Shown piece after piece: positions 343 to 31,105 of a DNA stretch of 41,557 nucleotides. Each line of letters begins with the position of its first letter. The stretch's first letter is position 1. This DNA comes from Candidatus Gastranaerophilales bacterium. Its GTDB lineage: Bacteria > Cyanobacteriota > Vampirovibrionia > Gastranaerophilales > Gastranaerophilaceae. The notes under the pieces are model-generated. The model did no database searches. It was given only the letters and a program-made list of their open reading frames with translations, and was not told where the DNA came from. The position numbers and the translations under genes are program-made. The DNA is taken from NCBI GenBank assembly GCA_944323265.1, contig CALURX010000018.1, positions 1 to 41,557 on the forward strand. Direction: 5' to 3'.

Positions 343-381
343 CATGTAACTCAATGGGTAATAAGTTACGTTCAATGTAAT
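343..381 (+). promoter_or_regulatory. Conserved adhesin leader element, copy 1 (alternating hairpin arms)
   Basis: There are three complementary arms: A (CATGTAAC, 343-350), B (GTTACGTT, 365-372) and C (AATGTAAT, 374-381). A and B are separated by 14 nt containing AATGGGTAATAA. The same arms with the same 14-nt spacing lie upstream of adhesin 2 at 31067-31105. The differences between the copies mostly replace Watson-Crick pairs with G-U pairs, so both A-B and B-C pairing survive in RNA. It could equally be a DNA operator. Confidence 0.55.
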
Positions 382-408
382 ACTATTTGTAAAGAAAGCG
401 AGGAAGAA

Positions 409-2124
409 GTGAGAGGAAAAAATGGCTTTTCATTAATGGAAATGATGGTTGTATTGCTCATAATGGCAATTATTGCAGCAGCAACAGCCCCAATTGTCAG
501 TAAGAAAATGACCCAGAGTGCATCCGGTAAAAGCGCAAGCCCCTGGGTATTTACAGGACAAGGGAAGAATATTGCCTACAATATGGGCGGTTTGAGTAAT
601 GCAACCGCAATAATCGGTGCAGCAAAGGTTCCTGAAGGAACAAATGCGAGATTATATATAGACTGCGGGTCTGATGCCGCCCAAATAGCACTAGGAAGCG
701 GAAATACAGCAGCAAATATATTGGCAGACCCTGTAGGAAAAAGAGTCGGCATTTTTTCAGCAGACTCTAATGTTAATGTTCCCAATAATTCTATAGCAAT
801 AGGTATGGATCAGAGTTTAAGCGGTACTGATTCTGTTACAGTAGGAAAAGGAGCCCAAACATCATCATACGCAGTTGCAGTAGGTTTAAGTGCTGATGCA
901 AGTAAAGAAGATTCTACAGCAATAGGTTATAACGCAAAGACGACAGGGAAATTAGGTTTATCTTGTGGTGCCGGTGCAGAAGCCGCTGCAAGTTCTTTGG
1001 CAGTAGGAGCTAAAGCCAAGGCAAAAGGAGGACATAGTATAGCAATTGGAGCTGCGACAACGATGTCTACAGCTGACTATGCAGCCGCTACTGACGACTA
1101 TGCAATAGCAATAGGCTCCGGCGCAAATTCTGTTGGAGAAGAAAGTATTTGTATTGGTAAAAGTGCCGTAACAAATAGTGCCGGCTCGATAGCAATAGGT
1201 ACTAATGCAAAAACAACAATGGGAACTGGTGCGGGTGCTCCTATAGCTATAGGTGAAAAGACTGTTGCGGGTTCAACAGCTTCTATCGCAATAGGGTCTC
1301 ATATTGATAATAGCGACAGTGGTTATGCAAATCGCCAAACAAAGGCTAATGGGCATGCCTCTACTGCTATCGGCGGTGGTGCTCAGGCTTCAGGCAGTTA
1401 TTCAATAGCACTTGGATGTAACTCTACTGCAAGTTATCGAGAATCCATTGCTATTGGTTATAATGCTAAGGCAACAACCAATAACCAAATTGTTCTTGGA
1501 ACAGCCGCTGACACTGTTTATATACCTGGAAATCTCGTTGTAGGCGGTTATTCATACTTTGGAGCAGATTTGGGAACAATACCTCAGGCTACCGGCAATG
1601 AACAAAATACTGCTATTTTTTTAAAGCAAGGCTTTAAGATGACACAATTAAGAGAAGAAGTCGGAGGAGGTAAGGATAAAAACGTTATCTATCATGATGA
1701 CCAACAGCATCCAGTACCATATTCAGACAAACGTCTAAAGAATCTTGGCGATAAGTACACAGCAGGAATAAATGAACTTAAAAAGCTGGATTTCTTTCAC
1801 TATACTTTCAAAAAAGACGAATCCAAAACTCCTCACGTTGGTGTAATAGCGCAGGATTTAGAGAAGGTATTTCCGGATGCGGTCACCAAAGATGATGAAG
1901 GTTATTTGAAAATCCGTTTCGAGGACATGTTCTATGCAGCTATAAATGCAATAAAAGAACTTGATAATAAGGTTAAAGAATTGTCATCTAAGGTTGCATC
2001 CGCTGTGGATGATATTGTGAGTATAAAGAACAAAAATGAAGAGCAGGATAAAATAATAGAAGAACTTAAGGCTCAAAATGAAGCTCTTATAAAACGAATA
2101 GAGGAGCTTGAAAAAAAGATTTAG
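409..2124 (+). CDS. Prepilin-anchored YadA-like head/S74 chaperone adhesin 1
   Basis: Probable surface fibre of 571 residues. The GTG start at 409 is chosen because it follows an AGCGAGGAAG ribosome site and gives a textbook prepilin leader: residues 1-6 end in Gly, followed by FSLMEMM with Glu at +5 and a hydrophobic helix. Next come a region of about 90 residues conserved in the paralogue at 31133, then repeated (S/A)IAIGxxA-type motifs over roughly residues 125-400 typical of YadA/trimeric autotransporter heads, then a neck-like VYIPGNLVVGG. An S74 intramolecular chaperone follows (YSDKRLK near residue 438, then HVGVIAQDL and VFPDAV), and a C-terminal coiled coil. S74 domains trimerise fibres and cut themselves off just before the Ser-Asp. 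The anchor is a pilin helix rather than a beta-barrel. Export by the pilus system at 14-20 kb is inferred. The domain calls are strong; the function is not tested. Confidence 0.85.
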   Translation: MRGKNGFSLMEMMVVLLIMAIIAAATAPIVSKKMTQSASGKSASPWVFTGQGKNIAYNMGGLSNATAIIGAAKVPEGTNARLYIDCGSDAAQIALGSGNTAANILADPVGKRVGIFSADSNVNVPNNSIAIGMDQSLSGTDSVTVGKGAQTSSYAVAVGLSADASKEDSTAIGYNAKTTGKLGLSCGAGAEAAASSLAVGAKAKAKGGHSIAIGAATTMSTADYAAATDDYAIAIGSGANSVGEESICIGKSAVTNSAGSIAIGTNAKTTMGTGAGAPIAIGEKTVAGSTASIAIGSHIDNSDSGYANRQTKANGHASTAIGGGAQASGSYSIALGCNSTASYRESIAIGYNAKATTNNQIVLGTAADTVYIPGNLVVGGYSYFGADLGTIPQATGNEQNTAIFLKQGFKMTQLREEVGGGKDKNVIYHDDQQHPVPYSDKRLKNLGDKYTAGINELKKLDFFHYTFKKDESKTPHVGVIAQDLEKVFPDAVTKDDEGYLKIRFEDMFYAAINAIKELDNKVKELSSKVASAVDDIVSIKNKNEEQDKIIEELKAQNEALIKRIEELEKKI

Positions 2125-2180
2125 CCGCTCACTTCGGCTATCCTTTCTTTGGCGGGGAAATTTCCCCGCCGTTTTTCTTT
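2123..2180 (+). terminator. Intrinsic terminator of adhesin 1, with shared 3' block
   Basis: A 10-bp self-complementary stem (GGCGGGGAAA with TTTCCCCGCC, 2151-2170) is followed by a T-rich run. Just before it, AGCCG...CGGCT forms a small hairpin within about 30 bases that recur almost unchanged behind adhesin 2. Confidence 0.85.
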
Positions 2181-14162: not shown

Positions 14163-14837
14163 ATGAAGATGCGCAATTATATGAAGAAAAAAGAAGAGCT
14201 TGGAAACGCATTAGATCTGTCAACAGACGAGTTGATAGAAAGGACTGTGGGTAAACGAAAAGTGGTGCTTAGAAAACGAGCAAAAGTCCTCTTGGCACTT
14301 TGTTGTATAGTCCCTATATTTTGTGTTTCCCTATCCTTACATAAGCAAGGATTTAATTCTCTGGAAGAAATTGATGGAGATGCAATTGGCTTTGTTACTG
14401 CCCCAATAGCAGCAACATCTGTCAAAAAGGATTTAATATCCATTCCGTCAGGAACTGTTAAGGCAAATCCGTTTTTACCTTATAGAGATATAGGCGGAAC
14501 CGCAGTAAGCGATGTTCCGACTTTTGATATCGTAGAACCTCCGGAGGTTATTAACGAAAATTCAGATGCTGCAAGGGTTATGGATACTATAGTCAGCGGT
14601 ATCCTGTATGATAAGTACAGCCCTTCTGCAATTTTGAATATTGAAGGAAATGATTATTTAGTAAAGAAAGGTGATACTGTTAATAATTATAAAGTCTTAA
14701 ATATTATGCAGGACAGTGTAACAGTTAAGCTTGGAAACAATGTTTATAAAGCTGGTATAGGTGAAATTTTAACCGAAGGGTCAGTAACTCATAATGACGT
14801 TTCAAATTTAAGTAGTAAATTCGGAGGGAAGAAATGA
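14163..14837 (+). CDS. GspC/PilP-like inner-membrane protein of the secretion/pilus system
   Basis: 224 residues. A basic N-terminus precedes one transmembrane helix (about 42-60). A proline-rich linker follows, then a C-terminal domain (about 145-210) with AILNIEGNDYLVKKGDTVNNYKV and DSVTVKLGNN that matches the homology region of GspC/PilP. These proteins link the inner-membrane platform to the secretin. The stop overlaps the secretin start (ATGA), which fits a direct partner. No good ribosome site is seen; ATGs at 14169 and 14181 are alternative starts. Confidence 0.75.
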   Translation: MKMRNYMKKKEELGNALDLSTDELIERTVGKRKVVLRKRAKVLLALCCIVPIFCVSLSLHKQGFNSLEEIDGDAIGFVTAPIAATSVKKDLISIPSGTVKANPFLPYRDIGGTAVSDVPTFDIVEPPEVINENSDAARVMDTIVSGILYDKYSPSAILNIEGNDYLVKKGDTVNNYKVLNIMQDSVTVKLGNNVYKAGIGEILTEGSVTHNDVSNLSSKFGGKK

Positions 14838-16744
14838 TGAAATATAATCATATACAGAGATTTTTATCAGCTGCGTTGTTATTAGCATTTACTGCACCTT
14901 CGGGTTTAGCAGTTTCAACATACGATGCAGCTTTAGACTCAGTGCAGGCAGTGCCTTATAAAGATTCAATGGTACTTTCCGCTGATGTGAAGCTTACGAA
15001 CAAGAATGACAAAATTAATCTTAGTTTGAGAAATTCTGATGTAAAACAGGTTTTGAGAATGTTTGCAGATAAAGTAGGCATGAATATTGTATTCCATTCA
15101 TCAGTTGAAGGAAATGTAACTCTTGATTTAGTTGATATGCCTGTTAATGATGCATTTAATCTGGTATTGCAGATTGCCGGTTTGAATTATTATAAACAAG
15201 ATAATACAATTATTGTACTTGCAAAAGACGCTGCAGATAATGCGACTTTTTCAAAACAAGAAATGATGGTATTTCCTGTAAAATATGTAAGTGCAGCAAA
15301 AATTGCAGACTTTTTGAATAAAAATGTTTTTGGAATGAAAAAAGCCGGACTTTCAAGTGTTGATGCTGCAACAGTAAATGCCGCAACAAACGAAATAATC
15401 GTTTTTGGTATGGAATCTGATGCTGCAATTGTTAAAAAGGTTATAGAGCAGCTTGACAGAGAACCATTAACAAAAACATTTACAGTAAATCATACGACAC
15501 CTGCAGAAATGGCGGATATGATATGTAATATGCTCTTACCGTCACGCGGTTCTTCAAATGGCGGTTCAAGCAGCAGTTCTTTTGCAACTATGGCAGCTCC
15601 TAGAACCCCTGGCGTAGGAACAGGCGGAGCTGCCGGTATAATGACCGGCGGTGCTGCAAGCAGTTCCGCAGGAGGCAGTGATATGAAACTCGGAGAAGGG
15701 GTTGTTGCTTGTACGATTTCCCCATCTGCGGTAACAACTACGGCATCTCCTTTTGATGTACAGAACCTTTCTATATCATACTTCCCGCAAAGAGGTACCA
15801 TTACAATGATGGGCGGTTCTGAAGCTCAATTGCAGATGGTTGAGAATTTTATCAAAACAAATGATATCAAGCAGCCGCAAGCATATTTGGAAGTTTCAAT
15901 TGTTGAACTTAATGAACAGGGAAGCAAGGAATTCTCTAATGACTGGTCTATACAAAGTAATGCCTGGGGTGTAAGATTCTCCGGCGGTCGTGTTAGCGGC
16001 GGCAGAGAAGCTTCTCCTGAACCAAGATGGTTTGATTATACTTATAAACAATTTGTTGACGGTCAGTGGAATGACGACGGTACTTATACTCCGCCTCAAT
16101 GGATTACTGTTGACGGTCAAAAACAAAATGTTTATGGCAGCGGCTCATATATTTCCTGGACTATGAATTATTTGATAGAAAACCAAAAGGGAAGAGTTCT
16201 TGCTAATCCGAAACTCTTGATTACAAACGGTCAGGAATCTGTTATTGACTTAACTCAAGATTATATTGAAAAAGTAACATCAGAGTTCTTGTCATCATCT
16301 AGTGCAGGTTATGGTGCAACCGGTACAGTTCAGAAAACATATACAATCGGTGAAGATCAGGGTATTAAAATTTCTTTAACTCCGTTTATATCACCAGATG
16401 GTTATGTAACATTGAATATTAAACCTGAATACGCTACGATTGCAGGTCAGGCAACAACTGTGGGTGAAACAGGGGAAAGAGAAGTTGCTGCTACACTTCT
16501 GAGCAGAAGAAATCTTGACTTGAAAAATGTAAGAATAAAAGATGGCGAAACTTTGATTATTGCTGGCTTAATTCAGGAAAATGAAAATAAAACCGTTCAA
16601 AAGATTCCTTTCTTGGGTGACTTGCCGGTAATAGGTTCTGTATTTAGATCTACAACTACATCTAAAACAAAGAATGAACTTGTAATAATGCTTACTCCAA
16701 GGATTATTAATGACGATGAAGGTACAGTAGCGGATAATTTATAA
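14834..16744 (+). CDS. Secretin (GspD/PilQ family)
   Basis: Outer-membrane channel for pilus or substrate passage, 636 residues. A signal peptide ends near residue 26 (ATG at 14834 or 14837). An N0/STN-like domain follows with LRNSDVKQVLRMFADKVGMNIVF, then KH-like N domains (MMVFPVKYVSAAKIADFLN and FTVNHTTPAEMADMI) joined by a Gly/Ser-rich linker. The secretin core has RVLANPKLLITNGQ, IKISLTPFISPDGYV, IKDGETLIIAGL and PFLGDLPVIGSVF. No lipobox and no pilotin gene are seen. The following pilB starts 3 bp after the stop. Confidence 0.93.
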   Translation: MMKYNHIQRFLSAALLLAFTAPSGLAVSTYDAALDSVQAVPYKDSMVLSADVKLTNKNDKINLSLRNSDVKQVLRMFADKVGMNIVFHSSVEGNVTLDLVDMPVNDAFNLVLQIAGLNYYKQDNTIIVLAKDAADNATFSKQEMMVFPVKYVSAAKIADFLNKNVFGMKKAGLSSVDAATVNAATNEIIVFGMESDAAIVKKVIEQLDREPLTKTFTVNHTTPAEMADMICNMLLPSRGSSNGGSSSSSFATMAAPRTPGVGTGGAAGIMTGGAASSSAGGSDMKLGEGVVACTISPSAVTTTASPFDVQNLSISYFPQRGTITMMGGSEAQLQMVENFIKTNDIKQPQAYLEVSIVELNEQGSKEFSNDWSIQSNAWGVRFSGGRVSGGREASPEPRWFDYTYKQFVDGQWNDDGTYTPPQWITVDGQKQNVYGSGSYISWTMNYLIENQKGRVLANPKLLITNGQESVIDLTQDYIEKVTSEFLSSSSAGYGATGTVQKTYTIGEDQGIKISLTPFISPDGYVTLNIKPEYATIAGQATTVGETGEREVAATLLSRRNLDLKNVRIKDGETLIIAGLIQENENKTVQKIPFLGDLPVIGSVFRSTTTSKTKNELVIMLTPRIINDDEGTVADNL

Positions 16745-16747
16745 TTT

Positions 16748-18817
16748 ATGTCTAATCAACTGGAAAAACTTAAAAATAGTATAAGACAAGAATATCTAAA
16801 GAACTTTGAATTAAACCTGATGAAGTCATCAGGTTTTATTCCAGTTGACAAACGCAAGAACGAATTCTTTGTTATTTTAAATAAGGATAATGCGGAGAAT
16901 AGATCTAAAATTGAAGAAATTATCAAAGAAAAGTTTAGTGGTCTGAGCCCAAAATTTATTCAAATTCCTTCCGGAGACTTTAATGAGGTTTTTGAATCAA
17001 TAAGTTCGCAAGTTACTAATGTTCAAGCGGAAAACCCGCCGGTCGGGCAATCACAAGAAACAGGAACAGCTCCTGAAAGTACTGAGCCTTCGGCGGAAGA
17101 AATGCTTGTGAGTATTGGCTGGATAACACAAAAACAATTAAATGAATGTATGCAGCTTGCACAAAATAGGAATGTGCCTCTGGATGCAATATTTCATGAA
17201 AAAGAATACTTGTCGTATGATAGGATAGTTTCGTATCTTAAGAAGAAATACAATTGCAATGTTGTCTCAAAGTCTAATATTATAGTTGACAAGAGTATTT
17301 TGAAGCTGTTACCGGACGATTTTGTTGAGAAAAAACGTACGGTAATTATGTCAATGGAAGATAACAAACTTGCAGTTGCAATGGTTAATCCTAATGACAA
17401 ATATACAATAAGAGAAATTTCTCTATCTACGGGACGCTCACTTAATGTATATTGTATACCTTATTTTGAATACGAAATGTATTTGAAAGAGTATTTCTTG
17501 CAGAAGAAGAGTGAACAGGCTGCAAAAGAGACTGAAAGAATTATTCAAAGTATTGAAGAAGAAGCGGCTCAGTTTAATAATGAAGAATCCTTGTGGGCAC
17601 AGGTTGAAAAAGAACTGCAAGATGCGAGCGGTAACGTTGCGAAGTTTGTATATAAAATTATTACGGATGCAATTGATGCTAAGGCTTCCGATATTCATAT
17701 TGAGCCGCGTCTTGGTTATTATGTTGTAAGACTTCGTTCTGATGGTATTTTGAAAAAAGTTTTGGAAATCCCGGGCAGTATTGAGCAAGCTGTAATAACT
17801 CGTTTTAAAGTTCTTGCAAGAATGAATATCGCAGAACACAGACGTCCGCAGGACGGTACGTTTTCTATTAAGTATAACGATAGGATGTATGATTTCCGTA
17901 TAAATACATTGCCTGTATCCGGAAAAGAAAAAGTTGTAATCCGTATTTTGGCGCCTGCCGTAAGCTTGAAAGCATCTGGCGATAAAATGGTTATTGCAGG
18001 AGCTGATGAGTCTGATATCCAAAAAATTCATGACATGGTTCAGTCTCCGAATGGTATTATTCTGACATCGGGTCCTACAGGTTCCGGTAAAACAACAACG
18101 CTTTATACGATTCTTAAGTCTTTAAACAAAGAAGATGTAAATATTACAACGATTGAGGATCCTATAGAAATTAAGCTCGAAGGTATCAACCAGTCTCAGG
18201 TAAACCCTAAGGCTGATATTACATTCGCTTCTTGTATGAGAGCTATTTTAAGACAGGACCCTGATATCATTCTTATCGGTGAAATCCGTGACTTTGAAAC
18301 ATTAGAAGTTGCAATTTCTGCGGCTTTAACAGGTCACCTTGTATTAAGCACAGTTCACACAAACTCTGCAGCTGCTACGGTTACTCGTTTGATTGAAATG
18401 GGTGCAAAAGATTATCTTGTATCTTCAACGTTGACAGGTGTTATCGCTCAGCGTCTTGTAAGGAGGCTCTGTGACAGCTGTAAAGAAGGGTATTTCCCGA
18501 CAGAAGAAGAAGTAAAGCATATTACTACTAATCCTAAAATGCAGCAACAGCTCTTAAAGACAAAATTATATAGAAAAAAAGGCTGTAAGGATTGCGGGTA
18601 TTTAGGTTATACAGGTCGTTTAGGTATTTATGAAGTTATGCCTATAACAAGAGAAATTAAGAAATTAATTGCACAAGGTGCGCATGATATTGAAATTGAA
18701 GAAGCTGCAGTTGCTGCAGGTATGAAAACCCTTAAGTATTCTTGCCTCAACCATATTATAGAGGGTGTCACTACAACTAGTGAATTTATAAGGGTATTGG
18801 GTTACGCTAATGAATAA
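16748..18817 (+). CDS. Pilus assembly/secretion ATPase (PilB/GspE)
   Basis: Hexameric ATPase that powers pilin polymerisation, 689 residues. The first 100 residues are a non-canonical extension, followed by a GspE N-terminal (MshEN-like) domain at about 115-250. The catalytic core has GPTGSGKTTTLY near residue 441 (Walker A), an Asp box TTIEDPIEI, Walker B ILIGEIRD and a His box GHLVLSTVHTN. Near the C-terminus a CDSC...CKDC zinc site is typical of extension ATPases and absent from retraction ATPases. No PilT-like gene is present in the window. Confidence 0.93.
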   Translation: MSNQLEKLKNSIRQEYLKNFELNLMKSSGFIPVDKRKNEFFVILNKDNAENRSKIEEIIKEKFSGLSPKFIQIPSGDFNEVFESISSQVTNVQAENPPVGQSQETGTAPESTEPSAEEMLVSIGWITQKQLNECMQLAQNRNVPLDAIFHEKEYLSYDRIVSYLKKKYNCNVVSKSNIIVDKSILKLLPDDFVEKKRTVIMSMEDNKLAVAMVNPNDKYTIREISLSTGRSLNVYCIPYFEYEMYLKEYFLQKKSEQAAKETERIIQSIEEEAAQFNNEESLWAQVEKELQDASGNVAKFVYKIITDAIDAKASDIHIEPRLGYYVVRLRSDGILKKVLEIPGSIEQAVITRFKVLARMNIAEHRRPQDGTFSIKYNDRMYDFRINTLPVSGKEKVVIRILAPAVSLKASGDKMVIAGADESDIQKIHDMVQSPNGIILTSGPTGSGKTTTLYTILKSLNKEDVNITTIEDPIEIKLEGINQSQVNPKADITFASCMRAILRQDPDIILIGEIRDFETLEVAISAALTGHLVLSTVHTNSAAATVTRLIEMGAKDYLVSSTLTGVIAQRLVRRLCDSCKEGYFPTEEEVKHITTNPKMQQQLLKTKLYRKKGCKDCGYLGYTGRLGIYEVMPITREIKKLIAQGAHDIEIEEAAVAAGMKTLKYSCLNHIIEGVTTTSEFIRVLGYANE

Positions 18818-18833: not shown

Positions 18834-20033
18834 ATGCCAATATACAGTTATACAGCACTGAAACAAGGAAAGGAAGTTGTAAGGGGAGAAATTACAGCAT
18901 CTGATCTTAAGGACGCCAGAGATGTCATTCGTAAAATGGGCTTGGTTCCTACAAAGATTAGTGAATACAATGATACGAAACAGAAAAAAGCTGCACGTAT
19001 TGCATCATTGTCTCTGAGTGAAAAAATTGATTTTCTGTCAACATTGCAAATCCTTCTTTCTTCAGGTATCCCTGCTGTAGAATCGTTGATGTTTATGGAG
19101 CAGGAAGCTGCAAAGGCAAAGATTAGAAATATGTCAAAAATTTTAAAGACGCAAATTATGGCAGGTTCGACCTTTGCTGATACTTTGGCACGTTATCCTC
19201 AGGTTTTCGGATATATATTTATTGGTTTGATAAAGGCTGGTGAAGAATCCGGTGAATTGGAAAAGACATTAGGACGTATGAAAGACTTGCTTCAAAAGCA
19301 GGCGAATATTAAAGGTAAAGTTATTGGTACTTTGATGTATCCGGCCTTTGTAGTTGTATTGGCCTTTTGTATTACTTTGGTAATGTTATTATTTGTATTT
19401 CCGACATTTAAAGGAATGTTTGAGGCGCAAGACAAGGCTTTACCTCTTATTACTTCATTGATGATTAATGCTGGTGATTATTTAAAAACTTATTGGTTTA
19501 CAATACCTATATTTATAGTTGTATTTGTTGCCTTCTGTTTTATCATGGTAAACTGGCAGCCAGCAAGAAATGTTTTGGATAAGTTGGTATTGAAAATACC
19601 TTTGTTTAATAATTTAATATTGTATGCAAACTATTCAAACTTTTTGTCAGTATTAAGTGTTTCTTATGATGCAGGTATTCCGATTGTAGACTGTCTGCAT
19701 TTGGGTGTTGTAACTTTGACTAATTCAGTATTAAGAAATAAAATGAGCGGAGCTATTGTAAAGGTTCAACAAGGTATGCAGGTATCTCAGGCTTTGCGTT
19801 CTACTAAAGTTGTTCCGAGAATGCTGCTGTTTATGATAGCAACAGGTGAGCAGTCAGGTCGTTTGGGAGATATGCTTGAAAAAGGTGTAAACTTCCTTGA
19901 TAAAACTCTTGACAGCATTATTGATACAATGACAAAGATGATTGAACCAATCATGCTTCTTGTAATCGGTAGTATTGTATTGGTAATGGCTCTGGCACTA
20001 TATCTGCCTTTATTCCAGTCCTACATGAGCTAA
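18834..20033 (+). CDS. Pilus/secretion inner-membrane platform protein (PilC/GspF)
   Basis: Polytopic platform protein, 399 residues. The N-terminal motif YSYTALKQGKEVVRGEI and two T2SSF domains (about 60-185 and 265-390) each carry membrane helices; GxGExSG-like motifs appear as AGEESGELEKTL and TGEQSGRLGDML. The AAGAGG ribosome site is good. Its stop codon forms TAATG with a possible micro-ORF. It completes the GspC-GspD-GspE-GspF core order. Confidence 0.94.
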   Translation: MPIYSYTALKQGKEVVRGEITASDLKDARDVIRKMGLVPTKISEYNDTKQKKAARIASLSLSEKIDFLSTLQILLSSGIPAVESLMFMEQEAAKAKIRNMSKILKTQIMAGSTFADTLARYPQVFGYIFIGLIKAGEESGELEKTLGRMKDLLQKQANIKGKVIGTLMYPAFVVVLAFCITLVMLLFVFPTFKGMFEAQDKALPLITSLMINAGDYLKTYWFTIPIFIVVFVAFCFIMVNWQPARNVLDKLVLKIPLFNNLILYANYSNFLSVLSVSYDAGIPIVDCLHLGVVTLTNSVLRNKMSGAIVKVQQGMQVSQALRSTKVVPRMLLFMIATGEQSGRLGDMLEKGVNFLDKTLDSIIDTMTKMIEPIMLLVIGSIVLVMALALYLPLFQSYMS

Positions 20034-30695: not shown

Positions 30696-30725
30696 AATGT
30701 AACAAAATACCCATTCTGTTACATG
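30696..30725 (-). repeat. Isolated copy of the adhesin leader element (A-B arms only)
   Basis: Read on the minus strand: CATGTAAC, 14 nt containing AATGGGTA, then GTTACATT. Spacing and loop match copies at 343 and 31067, but arm C is absent and no adhesin follows in that direction. Confidence 0.5.
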
Positions 30726-30825
30726 TGCTACGCACGTAGCCATTCTTTCCCTGTTGGGATAAGGCCTACAGGCTTGACGTTTTTTTGATGGAATTATCAC
30801 TCCTTAAATAAAGTATATTTATCCC

Positions 30826-30916
30826 CGCACGCGTGTGAGCGAAGCGAACTATAGCGTGCGTGAAAGATTGGGCGTGAGCCCAATAACAAACCACATTTGA
30901 GCGTTAGCGAAAATGT
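30826..30916 (+). other. Array of three hairpins, two with GAGCG-AGCGA loops
   Basis: Hairpin 1: CGCACGC (30826-30832) with GCGTGCG (30854-30860), loop containing GAGCGAAGCGA. Hairpin 2: ATTGGGC with GCCCAAT (30867-30884) and a GTGA (GNRA-type) loop. Hairpin 3: ACATTT with AAATGT (30893-30916), loop GAGCGTTAGCGA. The loops are alike while the stems differ, and a similar loop occurs near 147 upstream of adhesin 1. It could be a structured RNA or a repeat family. Confidence 0.5.
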
Positions 30917-30929
30917 AGAAAACAACAGC

Positions 30930-30988
30930 TTTTTTCTTCTCTTTTGGTTCTGTTTTCTCTTCTTTTTTTGCCTAAAAAGAAGAGAAAA
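30930..30988 (+). repeat. Homopyrimidine mirror repeat plus inverted repeat (triplex-capable)
   Basis: L (TTTTTTCTTCTCTTTT, 30930-30945) is the exact mirror of the 16 bases from 30953. The first 15 of those pair perfectly with AAAAAGAAGAGAAAA (30974-30988) around a 6-nt loop; GTTC and GAAC extend the stem. L lies parallel to the purine arm in sequence, the orientation a pyrimidine third strand needs. Confidence 0.6.
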
Positions 30989-31027
30989 TGAACAGACAAA
31001 ATCAAACAAAAAGAAAATTCTTGCATA

Positions 31028-31057
31028 TTGCATAAATATTGAATTATATGGTAAAAT
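31028..31057 (+). promoter_or_regulatory. Candidate promoter of adhesin 2
   Basis: TTGCAT (31028-31033) and TAAAAT (31052-31057) with an 18-bp spacer would place the leader element just inside the 5' untranslated region. Confidence 0.35.
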
Positions 31058-31066
31058 TAAGTAGCT

Positions 31067-31105
31067 AATGTAACAGAATGGGTAATAAGTTACATTCAAT
31101 GTAAC
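31067..31105 (+). promoter_or_regulatory. Conserved adhesin leader element, copy 2 (alternating hairpin arms)
   Basis: Arms AATGTAAC (31067-31074), GTTACATT (31089-31096) and AATGTAAC (31098-31105). B-C is a perfect 17-bp palindrome with one central base; A-B makes an 8-bp stem with a 14-nt loop. The two pairings exclude each other. The match to copy 1 continues through the ribosome site to the start codon. Confidence 0.6.

Follow-up and report, generated by a model that had tools for sequence, protein, structure and literature searches.

A candidate type IV pilus adhesin with a YadA-like head and an S74 chaperone domain in a Gastranaerophilales bacterium, encoded with paralogs behind apparent invertible promoters

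We propose that adhesin 1, encoded near the beginning of the window (the whole 41,557-bp stretch of Candidatus Gastranaerophilales DNA that was analysed), is a modular minor type IV pilin carrying a trimeric adhesive fibre, and that it belongs to a paralog set located behind apparent invertible promoters. We assign this reading a probability of roughly 0.6. The features on which it is based, including a second gene of the same architecture (adhesin 2), are compiled in Table 1.

Coordinates, strand and start of the adhesin 1 reading frame were upheld on re-check. The start codon is the GTG at 409, in a start context, AAGAAAGNGAGGNAGAAGTG, that is common to five paralogs. The longest mechanical reading frame, starting at 253, was rejected because it reads through the switch site and the shared context lies at 409. 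Since the DNA 5' of 409 is a separate switch region and AAGAAAGNGAGGNAGAAGTG is present in all five paralogs, the prepilin leader is the true N-terminus. It reads MRGKNG/FSLME (the slash marks the predicted cut); positions −1, +5 and +22 are occupied by Gly, Glu and Pro, respectively. Pfam profiles matched above their curated cut-offs for N_methyl (residues 1–26, E = 5e-7), YadA_head (7 stretches, 3e-19) and Peptidase_S74 (residues 439–493, 4e-12), and NCBIfam gives independent support for the domains. All parts that a sequence-only reading had recognised in this protein, namely a Gly/Phe prepilin leader with Glu at +5, a YadA-type head, a neck, an S74 domain and a C-terminal coiled coil, were recovered. 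The nucleophile, which it had placed near residue 438, is a serine as predicted but is residue 439. Its domain reading of the combination holds; the N_methyl+S74 fusion as such is not new and had already been catalogued by Raynaud et al. 2021 (PMC8179133).

Table 1 Features of the window that bear on adhesin 1, adhesin 2 and their export. Functional assignments are predictions; a dot marks features without strand.
Feature	Position	Strand	Basis or remark
Adhesin 1 switch, gene-side part of the segment	1..345	.	81-345 263/265 identical to C54, same orientation
Adhesin 1 switch, gene-proximal site (inverted repeat)	346..369	+	24-bp quasi-palindrome GTAACTCAATGGGTAATAAGTTAC; partner off contig
Ribosome-binding site AGGAAG	401..406	+	In shared context AAGAAAGCGAGGAAGAAGTG
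Adhesin 1 (prepilin / YadA-like head / S74 / coiled coil), 571 aa	409..2124	+	Pfam, AlphaFold
Prepilin leader MRGKNG, predicted cut after Gly6	409..426	+	Pfam N_methyl, TIGR02532
Pilin helix alpha-1 (residues 7-33), mature-chain Glu5 and Pro22	427..507	+	
N-cap beta region (residues 41-124)	529..780	+	85% identity among own paralogs
YadA-like head repeats (residues 125-366)	781..1506	+	Motifs often spaced 14 residues apart
Conserved neck (residues 367-384, DTVYIPGNLVV)	1507..1560	+	
Hypervariable segment preceding S74 (residues 385-438)	1561..1722	+	Paralog identity 8%
S74 / intramolecular chaperone domain (residues 439-520)	1723..1968	+	Predicted catalytic Ser439 and Lys444 (SDKRLK)
C-terminal helix / coiled coil (residues 507-571)	1927..2121	+	AlphaFold helix 507-570
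Intrinsic terminator-like hairpin 3' of adhesin 1	2150..2171	+	
Secretin, PilQ/GspD type	14834..16744	+	
Assembly ATPase, PilB/GspE type	16748..18817	+	
Platform protein, PilC/GspF type	18834..20033	+	
Adhesin 2 switch, distal site (inverted repeat)	30699..30722	-	Core CC on + strand
Apparent 347-bp invertible segment of the adhesin 2 switch	30723..31069	.	
Promoter TGCATA-17-TAAAAT, extended -10 TG	31029..31057	+	Gene-proximal end of the adhesin 2 segment
Adhesin 2 switch, gene-proximal site (inverted repeat)	31070..31093	+	Core GG
Adhesin 2, architecture of adhesin 1 repeated, 609 aa	31133..32962	+	Pfam

In the AlphaFold monomer model the head (about residues 90–366) forms a regular strand-turn roll, most blocks of which have a pLDDT of 80–97, and a long helix spans residues 507–570; the S74 part was modelled with low confidence (pLDDT about 50–60). 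Foldseek matched the head to the heads of BpaC, CbpF and YadA and found a weak match to the S74/ICA domain of MyRF. A profile search of solved structures returned BpaC (5e-35), YadA (4e-21) and MyRF ICA (4e-5), and type IV pilins only marginally. The strong PHROG and viral-fold matches to phage tail fibres would also suit a tail fibre of a prophage. However, this explanation is already contradicted by the downstream neighbours, which read from their translations as pyrH, frr, cdsA and rnc, by the limits of the phage matches, as no phage record spans 80% of the query and among the matches listed none reaches the leader, and by the many dispersed leader-bearing copies in family genomes. We regard it as scarcely tenable.

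The host genome (2.24 Mb, 99.95% complete) contains S74 at six places, five of them intact genes with pilin, head and S74 parts. The sixth copy (C22; L100 / L002) is broken, with head repeats and S74 in different frames and without a leader. Within the phylum, S74 matches occur in 85 of 292 genomes, nearly all of them in the same family (Gastranaerophilaceae), at up to 11 copies per genome. Leader frequency was determined in 33 ORFs drawn by an S74 search alone, in which the leader was not used. The leader pattern was matched in 28 of them; the remaining five comprise three ORFs truncated 5', one whose leader is a variant (A/VSLIE) and one (L138) that is leaderless. Thus, 29 of 30 five-prime-complete S74 proteins of the family carry a leader, with an intact Ser-Lys dyad, while no prepilin leader was found in six S74 proteins from other phylum members. 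Among 71 leader-bearing proteins the residue at −1 is Gly in 48 and Ala in 23, and Pro22, which lies outside the search pattern, is invariant (71/71); the conservation of Glu5 is not independent because this residue is part of the pattern. Due to the five intact copies in one genome and the dozens in relatives, the architecture is not a product of chance. At least three YadA-type motifs were counted in only 7 of 28 proteins of the sample drawn by S74 alone, and the YadA head is just one of several heads carried by the pilin-S74 scaffold. For the sampled members without a YadA head, including those of other genera, Pfam names no head. In another genus (L152, L153) three pilin-S74 genes with unnamed heads, two in tandem and one convergent, form a conserved cluster.

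The five paralogs are nearly constant at their ends and variable between them. Mean identity is 90% in leader and helix, 85% in the N-cap and 81% in S74, but 64% in the neck, 35% in the coiled coil, 34% in the head and 8% in residues 385–438; over 39 sequences this last segment falls to 6%. The hypervariable segment stands immediately before the predicted cut and, as that cut lies before Ser439, it would become the free end of the fibre. The S74-bearing MAT (mosaic adhesive trimer) fibre of Bdellovibrio and phage fibres expose a cleft at the corresponding end (PMC10769870). This distribution of variability also bears on the interpretation of S74 as a peptidase effector that is displayed on pili and cuts other proteins. 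N_methyl+S74 is one of the 15 most frequent modular pilin architectures in the survey of Raynaud et al., who read it as a predicted peptidase (PMC8179133). We consider this very unlikely, since variability peaks not in S74 but in the segment laid bare by the predicted self-cleavage, since the adhesin S74 retains the C-terminal layout with a coiled coil and the SDxRxK motif, and since descriptions of characterised S74/ICA domains present them as chaperones that cleave themselves (PMC8326128, PMC10769870). Our proposal, if true, would correct the prior reading of pilin-S74 proteins as displayed peptidases.

For MyRF, S587 and K592 are both essential and equivalent to S911 and K916 of endoNF, and cleavage occurs in the trimer only (PMC8326128). 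Ser439 and Lys444 of adhesin 1 have the same +5 spacing. From this homology we infer that adhesin 1 cleaves itself in dependence on trimerisation. Alternatively, S74 could be purely a trimerisation chaperone that stays attached to the fibre, and at least one otherwise intact relative (L039:3935-5578) has Cys in place of the nucleophile (CDRRLK). We judge this improbable, as the leader-bearing proteins otherwise retain both residues (Ser in 70/71, Lys in 71/71), a near-invariance that is hard to account for unless cleavage takes place.

With respect to export, the window encodes a secretin, an assembly ATPase and a platform protein, and the genome encodes a PilT-like ATPase and one match to a prepilin peptidase (a 305-aa ORF). 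No match to YadA_anchor was found by Pfam in the adhesin 1 protein or in 97 family genomes, in a search in which the E. coli control was positive, and a YadA barrel encoded elsewhere was thereby ruled out. Homotrimeric minor pilins such as CofB and TcpB can cap a pilus (PMC9565799). Taking together the machinery genes, the missing YadA_anchor and this precedent, loading at the pilus tip is most likely the route of adhesin 1. A fibre that is trimerised and cut but stays off pili, held either by an inner-membrane anchor or within a short pseudopilus in the periplasm, seems rather unlikely to us. It could accommodate that the assembly genes of the window reach the curated cut-offs of neither T4P nor T2SS, and that in adhesin 1 beta structure comes straight after the pilin helix, where the usual pilin globular domain was looked for and not found. 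Yet pilin Glu5 and Pro22 are retained, and the genome encodes all of secretin, platform, assembly ATPase, PilT-like ATPase and prepilin peptidase. Hypervariable tips combined with apparent promoter switching are also characteristic of structures exposed at the surface.

In the pilus-borne fibre that we favour, the adhesin 1 chain would enter the inner membrane via its prepilin helix. In the periplasm, S74 and the coiled coil would join three chains and aid the folding of the YadA-like heads, and correct trimerisation would set off a cut before Ser439 by the Ser439-Lys444 dyad. This would free a fragment of about 133 residues (S74 and coiled coil) and leave residues 385–438 exposed as the fibre tip. 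Prepilin peptidase would take off the six-residue leader, three pilin helices would seat the fibre in a type IV pilus, the tip being the most likely position, as with CofB/TcpB, and the pilus would carry it out through the secretin. The genome would thus hold a set of fibres with near-constant ends and differing heads and tips. Apparent invertible promoters with 24-bp inverted repeats, one preceding each gene of the set, would let cells express different members. The sequence-only reading had arrived at a pilin-anchored trimer with two processing cuts, and our results partly support it, as the tests run do not contradict that scheme. Its view that the adhesin is anchored by something other than a barrel agrees with the missing YadA_anchor; its YadA head proved to be only one of several. 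The inverted-repeat promoter switches 5' of the adhesin genes had escaped it.

The switch sites follow the consensus GTAAC-N14-GTTAC with conserved arms. By chance 0.02 matches are expected in the window, and genome-wide the motif occurs at about 27 places compared with 0–1 for a control pattern. In the host genome an upstream site is present at 13/13 large pilin genes but at 0/9 small pilin genes (about 2e-6). In most cases a few tens of bases separate the gene-proximal site from the start codon that follows; at the minus-strand gene of C49 the distance from the outer edge of the site to the leader codon is about 270 bases. Among the loci compared we counted 32 site pairs (one of them twice, as L056 and L133), all inverted except one and many with identical arms. 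The exception, L060:3386-3590, is the sole pair in direct orientation and may be a hybrid or an assembly error. The central dinucleotides are mostly CC/GG, CA/TG or CT/AG and are in opposite orientation within a pair, as expected for an inversion site. A shared operator was considered for the 24-bp palindrome and rejected, since the exact inverted pairing and the flipped segments fit an invertible promoter better. The genome encodes two small serine recombinases, on C3 and C70, as candidate enzymes, neither linked to the sites. The same sites accompany a second family of large modular pilins of about 470–560 aa (L201, L209, L199 and L202 on C31, C9, C12 and C33); those scanned (C31, C9, C12) have no Pfam domain besides N_methyl.

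Two loci of one MAG, L056 and L079, share both flanks (394/408 positions upstream, 230/231 downstream), while the 378-bp segment between the sites matches at 363/378 only when flipped. Both orientations therefore occur at the same site. The segments of L091/L092 (147/157) and L050/L076 (357/368) likewise match only when flipped, with less flank shared. The segment of adhesin 2 matches that of C49, also 347 bp long, at 323/342 positions only when flipped, and those of C53 and C50 unflipped. Promoter-like sequences with an extended −10 are found at the gene end in adhesin 2, C53 and C50, and at the far end in C1, C54, C12, C31 and C49. These calls are based on a simple consensus score, by which L056 and L079/L080 are not callable, and a sigma-70 promoter scan of 1–2300 gave no excess over shuffled sequence. 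With its promoter at the gene end, adhesin 2 looks ON. Adhesin 1 looks OFF: no convincing promoter was found at the gene-proximal end of 1–345 and, as the partner site lies off the contig, its state is read by homology with the OFF-like C54. A dispersed repeat of about 80 bp, which occurs at the ends of many contigs of the genome and inside which the window contig begins (about 6–83), is probably a cause of assembly breaks. At L203 (C34) and L206 (C49) a single switch separates a divergent pair of modular pilin genes, so that a flip could swap which gene is transcribed; the minus-strand gene of C34 is interrupted by a stop.

We interpret the inverted site pairs and the promoter-bearing segments in both orientations as apparent invertible promoters. 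As the comparisons set paralogous loci of assemblies against each other, they strongly suggest, but do not prove, that inversion takes place in a living population. The paired sites might instead be the ends of a MITE-like element that was inserted either way round. Dispersed intergenic repeats are common in the host genome and some sites, at C11, C23 and C36, do not adjoin pilin genes. We give this little credence, because at L056/L079 one site with both flanks shared holds both orientations, because the sites divide large from small pilin genes so sharply, and because a promoter stands at one end of the segment. Among the sampled family genomes the sites are abundant in only two (29 and 35 copies), and the motif was not found upstream of most S74-pilins in other genera. 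Switching by invertible promoters thus appears to be a feature of a lineage and not a property of the protein family.

More broadly, we speculate that lineage-wide type IV pilus adhesins of Gastranaerophilales are matured like phage tail fibres, as prepilins that S74 trimerises and proof-reads and whose self-cut unveils a hypervariable tip, and that in part of the lineage the repertoire, including other modular pilins, is switched cell by cell via invertible promoters; our own judgement on this wider proposal is evenly balanced. If true, it would describe how a trimeric surface adhesin can be made without an autotransporter barrel, with pilus assembly providing export and a phage-type chaperone providing folding. 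It would also offer a mechanism of surface variation in the poorly studied gut Gastranaerophilales, a non-photosynthetic cyanobacterial order, that is testable from sequence because available metagenome reads allow the orientations of a switch to be counted.

Our literature search found no report of invertible promoters in Gastranaerophilales, no publication on S74 in Melainabacteria pili, and neither the combination with a YadA head nor the design of constant ends with a variable tip nor the promoter switches. In the invertible promoters (invertons) of gut bacteria, short inverted repeats flank a promoter upstream of surface genes; the switches described here differ in that they precede modular pilin genes. 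Their presence at pilin genes appears to be new, whereas the N_methyl+S74 fusion and S74-matured cellular fibres (Bdellovibrio, 2024; PMC10769870) are already known. With modular type IV pilins such as PilB and PilC of S. sanguinis, adhesin 1 shares a prepilin helix onto which a non-pilin functional module is grafted; the accessible part of the modular pilin survey makes no mention of a YadA head, trimer maturation or promoter switching (PMC8179133). In CofB/TcpB the pilin helix is likewise followed by trimeric beta domains at the pilus tip, an arrangement that adhesin 1 would adopt by inference, but these proteins have their own H-type lectin-like tip, and S74 or self-cleavage is not mentioned in the accessible part of the source (PMC9565799). 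Trimeric autotransporter adhesins (type Vc) such as YadA and BpaC have the same YadA-like parallel beta-roll head; in contrast, adhesin 1 lacks the YadA_anchor barrel, begins with a prepilin leader and carries S74 at its C-terminus. The S74/ICA domains of endosialidase tailspikes and MyRF resemble that of adhesin 1 in the Ser-Lys dyad at the same spacing and in the C-terminal coiled coil, but belong to a phage or eukaryotic membrane-protein context (PMC8326128). The MAT fibres of Bdellovibrio are cellular and trimeric, with many paralogs, a self-cleaving S74 end and diverse tips, and their superfamily shares with adhesin 1, whose trimer and cleavage are predicted, an S74-terminated fibre with the SDxxxK motif (PMC10769870). 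Compared by description, MAT fibres have an N-terminal signal peptide, followed by a conserved beta domain of ~130 aa, and tips of beta-helix, lectin or TNF-like type, and the word "pilin" is absent from the MAT paper, whereas adhesin 1 begins with a prepilin leader.
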